Assembly (NCBI RefSeq): GCF_017316305.2
Contig: NZ_CP147250.1
Coordinates: 2,107,001 to 2,171,000 of the forward strand
DNA length: 64,000 nt
Source: Enterococcus sp. DIV1094
GTDB lineage: Bacteria > Bacillota > Bacilli > Lactobacillales > Enterococcaceae
Direction: 5' to 3'
Part shown: in pieces, positions 13,283 through 17,229 of the stretch
Layout: each line of letters starts with the position of its first letter
How positions within the stretch are numbered: the stretch's first letter is position 1
The notes under the pieces: generated by a model
Seen by the model: the letters and a program-made list of their open reading frames with translations, nothing else
Told to the model about the DNA's origin: nothing
Databases searched by the model: none
Made by a program: the position numbers and the translations under genes

Positions 13283-15113
13283 AGCTAGGAGAGATATTGA
13301 TTTTTAAACGATCGACCCATTTATCTTTTTCTTGGATCAAGGTGCTGCTGTATTTATCGAGCGTAGTTTGGATCATCATCAAGTCATACTGCTCCTGTCG
13401 CATCAATTCTTCTGTCACATCTTTTGAAAAAATATTTTTCTCATATTGTATGCTGTGTTCACAGTGGATCTGGATTTGAGAATTGATTTCTTGGATCGAT
13501 AAATAGATTTCTCGATGCAAAGGATTCTCAATGGCTTGAGTCTCTCGGAACGAGTGCTCGAGAATATGAATAAGCAGTTGCGTGAAATCTTCATCTTGGA
13601 TCGGTAACGAAGCGGGAATGTGTGTATGGAAATCGACTTTGATATTCTTTTTAGTCGCCACTTCTTGATATCTCGCCAGAATCAAATTTGTCAGTTGGTG
13701 CCCTGTCGGAAATAGGGACAGATCCAATTGTTTTGTTTCTTGTACGATTCGCTTTAAGTAAGCTTTTGCTTCATCTTGTTCATCTGCATCGATCAACTGA
13801 CTGAGTGCTTCCATCCGGGCAACAAAGTCATTTTTAGCATGATCGATTTGCTGGATCTGTGCTTGGATTTTCGCGTAATGTGTTTCAATCAAATCAGTTT
13901 TAGTTTGTAAGAAAAGCCGTTCTTTATGATAACTATCGATTTTCATGACATTTTCCATGATGTTGTATGCAACAATAACAATCAGGATGATCGCAAATAA
14001 AAGAGTGGACCAGTTGATGATCGTATGCCCGATACCTAAAGCTGTTTGGATATAGAACATACAATGAAAAATAGCGATCAAAACGATCCAAGGACTACAA
14101 ACAGTGAAAAATCGATTTTCTTTATATGCTTCTCCGATACTTGCGATGGAAGTAACTAAAGTGCTGACCACACTGACGACACTTGCAAATGGCATCAATT
14201 CAGGCAATTCAAAATCGGACAATAACGAATAAAGAATGATATTGGCAAAAAGAAATGCTTGGAAATAGCAGAAGTAGCCATACCATTTCTGGTAGCTCGT
14301 CATTTTTGATTGATAGTAAAAAATGATCAGTATAGAAGTCAAAATAGCGAATAAGTGAGAAAAAATTGAATGAACGATTGGCTCAAAAAGAACCCCACTC
14401 AAGATATCCTCCGAAATAGATTCAAACCCAAGAACTAAAGAAAATAGACTTAAAATCAATAATGAACGATCCAATTTCTTGTGTCTATAGAGAATATAGC
14501 TCGTCCAGATCAATAATCCGATGGCGATAACGAAAGCCAGGATCATCGCAATGACTTGAGGGATCGACTGTGAAAAAATAAAGCTGATCATAGGACTGGT
14601 TGTTCCTAAATAAACTTTTGGTGTCAGTCCTGAATAATTCTGGTAGGGGGAGGAAACAACGATTTTCAATGTCTTACCAACATAAGATTCTGGAAGATCA
14701 ATGATCGATAATGATAATCCAGGGTTGTTTCTTTCACTATCTTTTGATCGACTGTAGAGTAGAGTATCATCTAGTGAAACACTTAGCCATTGGTGATTAC
14801 CTTTGATCAACAGATTGGCATCATCCAAATCTTTATGTAGAGTCGTCTCCATTATAAATGGTTCATTTTTATCGATCGATGGCATGTAGTCGATATGGCT
14901 GCTATCGAACTGGAAATATGGATCATACTCAGAATAATACACCCATGAGTCTTCGATCTGTGACATTTGTTTGCTGTCAACTGGAGTGAAAATGTAATGG
15001 AAAAAATAAGTAATGCTGATTATAAATAACGTAGTTAATGTAATGATTATACTCCATTTGAGTTTTATAGAGAATGGTGCATTTTTATTACGAATGTTAT
15101 TAAAAAGAACCAT
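13281..15113 (-). CDS. 7TM membrane sensor with degenerate histidine-kinase core
   Basis: 610 residues. Order: membrane helix (about 18-42); extracellular beta-rich region (43-180); block of about seven membrane helices (185-395), an arrangement like 7TMR-DISM receptors; a coiled coil (395-450); and a cytosolic part laid out like an AgrC/SpoB-type kinase. Key residues look lost. Where AgrC-type kinases have the HDxxNH phospho-acceptor helix, this has DHAKND (424-429), with Asp at the usual His position. The N-box region reads LLIHILEHSFRE (about 510-522) without the binding Asn residues, and no glycine-rich G-box is visible near the end. I infer a pseudo-kinase or ligand-binding adaptor. No response regulator is adjacent. 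ATG follows AAAGGAGA. Confidence 0.75.
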   Translation of the reverse strand: MVLFNNIRNKNAPFSIKLKWSIIITLTTLFIISITYFFHYIFTPVDSKQMSQIEDSWVYYSEYDPYFQFDSSHIDYMPSIDKNEPFIMETTLHKDLDDANLLIKGNHQWLSVSLDDTLLYSRSKDSERNNPGLSLSIIDLPESYVGKTLKIVVSSPYQNYSGLTPKVYLGTTSPMISFIFSQSIPQVIAMILAFVIAIGLLIWTSYILYRHKKLDRSLLILSLFSLVLGFESISEDILSGVLFEPIVHSIFSHLFAILTSILIIFYYQSKMTSYQKWYGYFCYFQAFLFANIILYSLLSDFELPELMPFASVVSVVSTLVTSIASIGEAYKENRFFTVCSPWIVLIAIFHCMFYIQTALGIGHTIINWSTLLFAIILIVIVAYNIMENVMKIDSYHKERLFLQTKTDLIETHYAKIQAQIQQIDHAKNDFVARMEALSQLIDADEQDEAKAYLKRIVQETKQLDLSLFPTGHQLTNLILARYQEVATKKNIKVDFHTHIPASLPIQDEDFTQLLIHILEHSFRETQAIENPLHREIYLSIQEINSQIQIHCEHSIQYEKNIFSKDVTEELMRQEQYDLMMIQTTLDKYSSTLIQEKDKWVDRLKINISPS

Positions 15114-15134
15114 AGACGAATCTCCTTTTGTAAG

Positions 15135-15175
15135 TACTCTAATTCAAGAGTAAACTTTTTTTATTTTAGAGTCAA
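15135..15175 (-). promoter_or_regulatory. Promoter with palindrome for the minus-strand membrane sensor
   Basis: On the minus strand TTGACT (15170-15175), a 17-bp spacer and TACTCT (15147-15152) form a good sigma-A promoter 34 bp upstream of the start. The -10 hexamer is also one arm of an 18-bp inverted repeat, TACTCT-6-AGAGTA (15135-15152), which could be an operator. The role is inferred. Confidence 0.6.
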
Positions 15176-15200
15176 TTTTTATCTGCGTCAACACATTTTT

Positions 15201-15229
15201 TTGTCAATTAGTTTTATTTTTCTTTAATA
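15201..15229 (+). promoter_or_regulatory. Possible promoter for the SipW-like gene
   Basis: TTGTCA (15201-15206), 17-bp spacer, TTAATA (15224-15229), in a very AT-rich gap. The match is modest and other AT-rich -10 candidates follow nearer the gene. Confidence 0.35.
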
Positions 15230-15313
15230 AGATAATGCTTGAGTGTTAATGTTGTAATAAATATCTTGTTATTATATTATGTATTTAATGAAATGTTACG
15301 AAGGAGGTCCGAT

Positions 15314-15844
15314 GTGCCTATCTATAAAAAAATAACCTTTATTAGCTCAATTACGTTAGTGTCTTTATTAGCAATGATTTTATGTGTCGTGTTGCTTCCT
15401 CGTGTATTTGGATTGACCCCACATATCATCGACGATCAAGCAATGGGCGCAGCCTATTCAGAAGGAAGCTTGATCTATGTACAAAAAAGAAAGGTGGATA
15501 CGTTATTAGTTGGCGATGTGATTACCTACTATGAGAATTCTGGTAAACATATTGTGACAAGAAGAGTCGTTGCTATTGAAGACCAACATCGCTATTTTTA
15601 TACGAAAGCCGATGGGAAAACGCAGATTGAAGTCGAAGCCGTTCGAGACCGCAATATTATTGGAACACCTGTGTTTAAGATTCCTTACATCGGATTGCTG
15701 TTTTCACGACATGCATTTAATTGGATGAAATGGGTTTTCTTAGGCATTGCTGTTTGCTTGTCCTCAATTACTGCTTGGCACACTTACCTTGAATTGAAGA
15801 AGCGCCGAGAGAAAGAAACTGATTTCTTTTCTGATATCCAATAG
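15314..15844 (+). CDS. SipW-like (S26B) signal peptidase homologue, catalytically inactive by sequence
   Basis: 176 residues: membrane helix (about 8-29), peptidase-like domain, second helix (about 130-153), basic tail. From FGLTPHII onward it aligns without gaps to SipW-type signal peptidases (EGSLIYV, GDVITYYEN, YTKADG, FKIPYIGLL). The serine of the usual SGSMEP motif is Ala43 (DDQAMGAA), and the histidine of the usual VTHRIV is Arg83 (VTRRVV). Both catalytic residues of the S26B dyad are therefore missing and it should not cleave signal peptides. I start at GTG 15314, six bases after AAGGAGG (15301-15307); an upstream TTG at 15239 lacks a ribosome site and an ATG at 15312 is out of frame. 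It is divergent from the pseudo-kinase gene. Confidence 0.82.
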   Translation: MPIYKKITFISSITLVSLLAMILCVVLLPRVFGLTPHIIDDQAMGAAYSEGSLIYVQKRKVDTLLVGDVITYYENSGKHIVTRRVVAIEDQHRYFYTKADGKTQIEVEAVRDRNIIGTPVFKIPYIGLLFSRHAFNWMKWVFLGIAVCLSSITAWHTYLELKKRREKETDFFSDIQ

Positions 15845-16872: not shown

Positions 16873-16893
16873 TATTTTTGTTCCGCTAAAGCT

Positions 16894-16967
16894 GTCATAG
16901 TAGCTCAGCTGGATAGAGCATCCGCCTTCTAAGCGGACGGTCGGGGGTTCGAATCCCTCCTGTGACG
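16894..16967 (+). tRNA. tRNA-Arg (anticodon TCT)
   Basis: 74 bases fold as a full cloverleaf: acceptor GTCATAG/CTGTGAC with one G-U pair, D-arm GCTC/GAGC, anticodon stem TCCGC/GCGGA around loop CTTCTAA (anticodon TCT, reads AGA), T-arm with TTCGAAT loop, discriminator G. CCA is not encoded. A terminator follows directly. Confidence 0.97.
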
Positions 16968-16974
16968 TAAAAAA

Positions 16975-17006: not shown

Positions 17007-17229
17007 TTGTATATTGTGCCAAATGAGTGCCAAAAGGTGAGAAAAGTATAAGAGTATGGAGCAGCGATTCTTAAAACCACGAAAATGTTGTTCCAGAATC
17101 ACTCCTTCAGAAATAAGTGTGAAACCCCCATAAATTCGTCGAGTAATTTTCGGTTCTTCATGCTTATTTTTTGGAGCTGCCCCACCCGTCATCCCCTCTT
17201 TCTGTACATATTTGTAAGAAATCAACATG
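17007..17229. other. Intergenic stretch after tRNA-Arg, possible scar of an integrated element
   Basis: No convincing gene. Right after the tRNA terminator lies a repeat, TGCCAAATGAGTGCCAAA (17018-17035). On the minus strand this reads like the Gly-Thr/Leu-Ala-rich tails often seen at the end of tyrosine-integrase genes next to tRNA attachment sites. The remaining bases show no integrase motif. This may be the scar of a lost element; the evidence is weak. Confidence 0.25.

Follow-up and report, generated by a model that had tools for sequence, protein, structure and literature searches.

The DNA considered here is a stretch of 64,000 nucleotides (the window) from Enterococcus sp. DIV1094, contig NZ_CP147250.1, positions 2,107,001 to 2,171,000. 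It carries a divergent gene pair (Table 1) consisting of a signal peptidase homologue that has lost its catalytic residues, provisionally named sipX, and a predicted kinase-dead sensor resembling AgrC. The open reading frame (ORF) of sipX begins with a GTG codon at 15314, follows AAGGAGG at 15301-15307 and encodes 176 amino acids, its stop codon ending at 15844. The source of the window is placed by sequence among enterococci near E. mundtii; SipX is 91% identical to proteins of two E. mundtii genomes and its partner is 100% identical to a protein of Enterococcus sp. DIV1298c. SipX is also carried by E. durans, E. villorum, E. ratti, E. thailandicus and E. faecium.

Table 1. Features of the sipX locus; positions are those of the window.
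Feature	Positions	Strand	Description
Partner sensor, 610 amino acids	13281..15113	-	Transmembrane helix, beta-rich ectodomain (about 42-183), seven-transmembrane (7TM) region, long coiled helix, AgrC-like GHKL pseudo-kinase (about 471-610), as predicted
Gln575 and Asp577 (QYD)	13383..13391	-	At the two G-box glycines, which are lost
His516 to His520 (HILEH)	13554..13568	-	At N-box, whose Asn is lost; NILDN in intact kinases
Asn428	13830..13832	-	At phosphoacceptor His position; KNDF versus KHDL of intact GHKL kinases
Intergenic region common to the divergent pair	15114..15313		Between sensor and sipX
GTTATTATATTAT upstream of sipX	15268..15280	+	Promoter-like, putative
sipX	15314..15844	+	Homologue of signal peptidases of the endoplasmic reticulum (ER) type, predicted inactive; N-terminal transmembrane helix, S26 domain, C-terminal helix
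S26 fold region, SipX residues 32-130	15407..15703	+	Predicted to resemble SEC11C, SipA and LepB
Ala43, codon GCA	15440..15442	+	Nucleophile Ser position
Arg83, codon AGA	15560..15562	+	General-base His position; all 51 family rows have Arg, through six codons
Asp100	15611..15613	+	Active-site Asp that is kept, without exception in the 51 family rows

SipX shares with SipW and the ER-type signal peptidase I enzymes (family S26B; human SEC11) the fold, an N-terminal transmembrane anchor, the order of motifs, Met44 and Asp100. Its score of 55 bits lies above the cut-off of TIGR02228, which describes archaeal and ER-type signal peptidase I (51.85), and it falls below those of Pfam PF10502 (20.9 bits, cut-off 22.9) and the SipW equivalog NF046067 (48 bits, cut-off 190). 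A profile of 13 rows of the SipX family matched three sequences of solved structures at E up to 0.01, all of them human SEC11A or SEC11C (E 4.2e-8 to 1.3e-7). The predicted structure has the S26 fold, with SEC11C, SipA and LepB as fold matches; in a viral structure library it gave ten matches at E up to 0.001: seven carry the name signal peptidase, S26 or SipA, two are nameless and the last is a predicted transcriptional regulator. SipX differs from SipW and SEC11 in having neither the Ser nor the His of the active site, and Glu106 stands in place of their second Asp. SipW activity also requires its Asp residues. The Ser-His dyad is described as the catalytic pair of the ER-type enzymes in PMC10269814.

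A first-pass annotation of this DNA had placed Ala43 (GCA) and Arg83 (AGA) at the positions of the nucleophile and the general base, and the ORF, codons and residues are as it described. Its alignment with SipW-type peptidases does extend over the active site but is not quite gap-free, a single residue being inserted or deleted between the Ser motif and the His motif. Two protein searches placed these residues among their relatives: of 274 candidates, SipX itself matched 166 at E up to 1e-3, and the 13-row alignment matched 242 proteins at E up to 1e-10, with the best 120 listed in each case. Within the best 120 of the 166, the enterococcal block ranks above the SipW-like remainder. Among the matches listed, the 27 family proteins have Arg in the His column in all but one protein (P0150, with His), and their Ser column holds Gly (10), Ala (8), Glu (4), Asp (3), Ser (P0150 again) and one gap, in a fragment; Ser and His are present in all 111 of the other SipW-like rows.

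A profile search also covered 105 Enterococcaceae genomes. Fifty-nine had a match at E up to 1e-8, and by score 51 of these belong to the SipX family (50 at 121 bits or above, and genome G066 at 78 bits); the proteins of the other eight are SipW-like and align with Ser and His. Across the 50 family rows, from which G066 is excluded, the nucleophile column contains K15 A13 D8 G5 E4 Q2 N1 T1 H1 and the His column R50; the 20 further rows of the alignment, G066 included, have S20 and H20. Adding the window makes 51 family rows (50 genomes and the window), none with Ser at the nucleophile column. The Arg83 codons in these rows are CGG (17), CGA (9), CGT (9), AGA (7), CGC (6) and AGG (3), and since all six Arg codons are used it is the amino acid, rather than the DNA, that has been held. 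Fixation of both replacements in enterococcal orthologues had been raised in the first-pass annotation; in these rows it is true of Arg83 but not of Ala43, whose position admits nine residue types, though never Ser. Orthologues with Ser and His, which would have pointed to a strain mutation, number zero among the 50 family genomes and occur only in G066, a sister lineage, and in P0150, which resembles the G066 protein. SipX has, by these alignments, lost its catalytic residues and is very probably not a peptidase.

It is very improbable that SipX remains a peptidase with another nucleophile or base. In favour of it, Arg83 and Asp100 are invariant and Lys occupies the nucleophile position in 15 of the 50 rows, 14 of which fall in one clade. 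Against it, that position admits nine residue types in the family as a whole. None of the columns with Ser, Cys or His reaches 85% conservation across the 50 rows, which from sequence leaves no candidate for the alternative Ser/Lys dyad that the first-pass annotation had envisaged. In Streptococcus pyogenes SipA, changing the parallel residues Asp48 and Lys83 is reported to have had no visible effect on pilus polymerisation (PMC4049620). A pseudogene or recent strain mutation is scarcely credible. The lost catalytic residues are all that speaks for it, and decay of this kind is ruled out by the fixation of Arg83 through six codons in 51 of 51 rows and by the ratio of non-synonymous to synonymous substitution (dN/dS), which is 0.034-0.154 in 15 of 16 genome pairs (in the remaining pair dS is saturated). 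Together with the predicted S26 fold, these values bear out the first-pass proposal that a fold has been selected without catalysis. The roles put forward there, binding or shielding of signal peptides or service as a chaperone or sensor for secreted proteins, are candidate functions.

In a 70-row tree the 50 family rows have a single origin (98/94). G066 is placed as their sister (95/84); its branch is long and this placement is less sure. The G066 protein retains Ser and His, and it is the two Asp residues that are replaced, by His and Ser. The G066 locus (L103, 858-3278) has the same divergent pair with this different set of catalytic losses, and so offers a natural comparison with the dead clade.

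The divergent partner, adjacent to sipX in every genome that has both, is an addition to what the first-pass annotation had reported. Its model contains seven helices, read as a 7TM region, of which five pass the hydropathy cut. The GHKL ATP-binding fold is predicted to be kept, but relative to AgrC-type GHKL kinases the partner lacks the phosphoacceptor His, its N-box and G-box are altered, and an ectodomain and seven-helix layout stands in front. The N-terminal half of AgrC is different from that of the partner. Among 13 partner rows compared, G004 has His in the phosphoacceptor column without the other boxes, and G062 retains an N-box and G-box like those of intact kinases. An ectodomain followed by a 7TM region is also the layout of the 7TMR-DISM-type sensor RetS, and the kinase region of RetS in its complex with GacS ranks fourth among the partner's matches. 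RetS acts by pairing with GacS; unlike the partner, it is a hybrid kinase. The first 25 of the 34 Pfam families listed for 17 partner members include no 7TMR-DISM domain; the helix layout agrees. No solved structure matched a profile of the partner better than E 0.49. A Foldseek match to human WLS (Wntless) at rank 46 (467 columns, 15.3 A root-mean-square deviation; partner model residues about 40-390) is a weak lead concerning the upper half of the sensor.

Conservation of the partner was assessed in 44 of 50 proteins by counting columns at least 90% identical, with gaps scored as different. These make up 15 of 145 columns in the ectodomain and 20 of 210 in the transmembrane region, whereas the GHKL domain has 2 among 137 columns and the coil, with 80 columns, has none; in 13 of the 44 proteins the cytoplasmic part is shortened and barely alignable. 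From this column conservation, the part common to all partners lies in the membrane or on its outer side, the expected place of the SipX domain. In a wider search with the sensor profile, with no more than three candidates scored per genome, 34 genomes matched at E up to 1e-15 out of a sample of 395 from the order, family members among them; the four outside the 105-genome set (G227, G246, G332 and G389) cover the GHKL end only.

In the 105 genomes, 51 matched the sensor at E up to 1e-10, and removing G082, whose match covers the GHKL end only, leaves 50. SipX is found in 51 and both genes in 49, and in all 49 they are adjacent and divergent; all 15 genomes of the genus of E. mundtii have both. 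The sensor occurs without SipX in G051, at a contig end. SipX occurs without the sensor in G030 and G036, which are sisters in the tree; no sensor match is present in either, SipX ends before the C-terminal helix, and the sensor deletion and SipX truncation can be aligned between their loci (L131 and L132). The dN/dS between the two truncated genes is 0.08. In E. mundtii Pe161 (G001; L001, 8571-9636) the sensor homologue is broken by internal stops. Sequencing or assembly error may account for this, because the adjoining M42 peptidase gene also splits into two matches. Another E. mundtii (L002) has an intact copy, and the sensor of G013 is split.

Sixteen neighbourhoods were compared, comprising 15 genomes and the window. 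The neighbouring genes are those we take to be dltC, dltD, lplA, an M42 peptidase, DUF975, a metallo-beta-lactamase fold protein and DltA, together with a CPBP protease and a methyltransferase named from Pfam. The pair is together in 14 of the 16, in different surroundings in G022 and G066. lplA is nearby in 13; in G022, G041 and G066 it is not, and the pair is still together, with the methyltransferase side unchanged in G041. The methyltransferase family is present in nine neighbourhoods, and the four genes beyond it were matched in two of ten loci only, both E. mundtii. A conserved third gene was considered: the sole extra family, beside the sensor in 6 of 16 neighbourhoods, looks by sequence like prolyl-tRNA synthetase and is an ordinary neighbour. 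Between the pair, the first ten bases of the promoter-like GTTATTATATTAT are GTTATTATAT, invariant in ten of ten aligned loci; a promoter scan of the intergenic region found four sites against 4.0 in shuffles, thus no excess.

Inactive signal peptidases are already known in bacteria; the SEC11/SipW-type variant is new. S. pyogenes SipA resembles SipX in combining a signal peptidase fold with replaced catalytic residues. It is encoded in a pilus cluster and required for pilus polymerisation, and the accessible sections of the report name no sensor partner (PMC4049620). In Staphylococcus aureus, SpsA is described as a signal peptidase homologue without two conserved catalytic residues (PMC12445088). 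Both SipA and SpsA are of the P-type (Ser-Lys) line, whereas SipX is of the SEC11/SipW type and comes with a partner that can be tested. SpsA is encoded with the active SpsB, and we know of no pseudo-kinase partner for it. A second role, in surface-adhered biofilm, is attributed to the bifunctional SipW in a review (PMC4238804). In the literature searched, which mostly did not reach subscription journals, none of the titles or opening lines of abstracts listed was recognised as a description of the SipX-sensor pair.

SipA's location among sortase and pilin genes is not a trait of SipX, as LPxTG pilin genes were found in only one of the 16 neighbourhoods (G022) and a sortase-like ORF with the TLxTC motif in none, by a motif scan that falls short of full annotation. 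In G022 (L134, 7727-15669) the pair stands beside a three-gene LPxTG pilin operon on the minus strand, encoding a VWA tip protein, a 266-amino-acid protein and a pilin with D1/SpaA domains, and the ORFs scanned there have no sortase-like TLxTC motif. The window (5001-26000) and G034 each have one LPxTG-like motif, inside the ORF read as DltA and not a sorting signal. A homologue of the G022 major pilin (E up to 1e-15) is present in 44 of 51 SipX genomes and 18 of 54 others, the seven SipX genomes without it being G005, G006, G021, G036, G050, G052 and G066. A SipA-like pilus link was set aside on these grounds, the co-occurrence being confounded by descent.

A dead peptidase beside a dead kinase suggests joint action at the cell surface that involves no enzyme activity, and on balance we favour the view that SipX and the sensor form an envelope sensing or scaffolding module of two pseudoenzymes. 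Both active sites are lost, as read from the alignments, and both folds are kept in the predicted models; purifying selection, a single origin in the tree and adjacency in 49 of 49 genomes are observed. More tentatively, we propose as one possible form of this module a receptor of enterococci in which SipX captures uncleaved signal peptides or exported peptides at the membrane and reports to the kinase-dead sensor, so that secretion or surface assembly would be monitored without proteolysis or phosphorylation. In the favoured module as such, SipX would be anchored in the membrane and expose its S26 domain to the exterior. The former active site, in which Arg83 and Asp100 are invariant while the nucleophile position drifts freely, would hold, uncleaved, either an exported peptide or part of a surface protein; such binding is inferred from the kept fold and the analogy with SipA. 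The sensor may then read the state of SipX through its ectodomain, in a putative physical complex, and the output could perhaps pass through pairing with an intact GHKL kinase.

Several observations weigh against the two-pseudoenzyme module. Common descent, at a single conserved site of the chromosome, confounds both the co-occurrence and the adjacency, and the Fisher test of co-occurrence (p about 2e-26) treats genomes as independent and is for that reason no measure of the strength of selection. The lineage of G030 and G036, without the sensor, keeps a truncated SipX under constraint, so SipX seems to have, or to have had until recently, a use independent of the sensor. In the two groups of genomes nearest the window the GHKL domain matches the ectodomain in conservation (with G015 as reference, mean identities of 0.60 against 0.59 in 11 genomes, and 0.41 against 0.40 in 10), which indicates that the dead kinase domain is constrained there too; its low conservation overall is due to other lineages, the domain being shortened and hardly alignable in 13 of 44 proteins, and an output through GHKL pairing therefore cannot be general. 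SipA, the closest functional parallel, bound none of its candidate peptides in vitro, although its authors propose binding (PMC4049620).

The independent use seen in G030 and G036 also fits a different account, doubtful in our view though a serious one, in which SipX works on its own as a non-catalytic accessory of secretion or surface-protein assembly, as SipA does for pili, either as a chaperone for an exported protein or as a modulator of the housekeeping signal peptidases, and the sensor is merely an inherited neighbour. Inactive homologues of this kind exist in SipA and SpsA, and housekeeping peptidases are present to be modulated, since each of ten genomes searched has at least two S26 matches above 160 bits (cut-off 22.9). 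The pilin operon of G022 and the excess of pilin homologues in SipX genomes would agree, but this association is confounded by descent, fails in seven SipX genomes and extends to a single neighbourhood. Against a SipX that stands alone is the adjacency of the two genes in 49 of 49 genomes, which holds even without lplA next to them. That adjacency could itself reflect only the intact inheritance of a chromosome stretch, with no functional link and the 610-amino-acid protein an unrelated sensor. In 13 of 16 neighbourhoods lplA and metallo-beta-lactamase-fold genes do adjoin the pair or the leftover sipX, G041 retains its methyltransferase side, and the G030/G036 lineage lost the sensor alone. 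We nevertheless consider this unlikely, as the other neighbours vary (the methyltransferase in 9 of 16, the next four genes in 2 of 10) while the pair is kept together in 14 of 16 and occurs in different surroundings in G022 and G066.

Databases label proteins of the SipX family signal peptidase I, a name that is very probably wrong for the function of SipX. The role of a signal peptidase fold that does not cut would become directly testable here, in a pair of genes that can be deleted individually. Beyond the pair lies the only tRNA found in the window, a tRNA-Arg (TCT) at 16893-16968 on the plus strand, followed at about 17017-17035 by GTGCCAAATGAGTGCCA, which resembles the remnant of an integration site.
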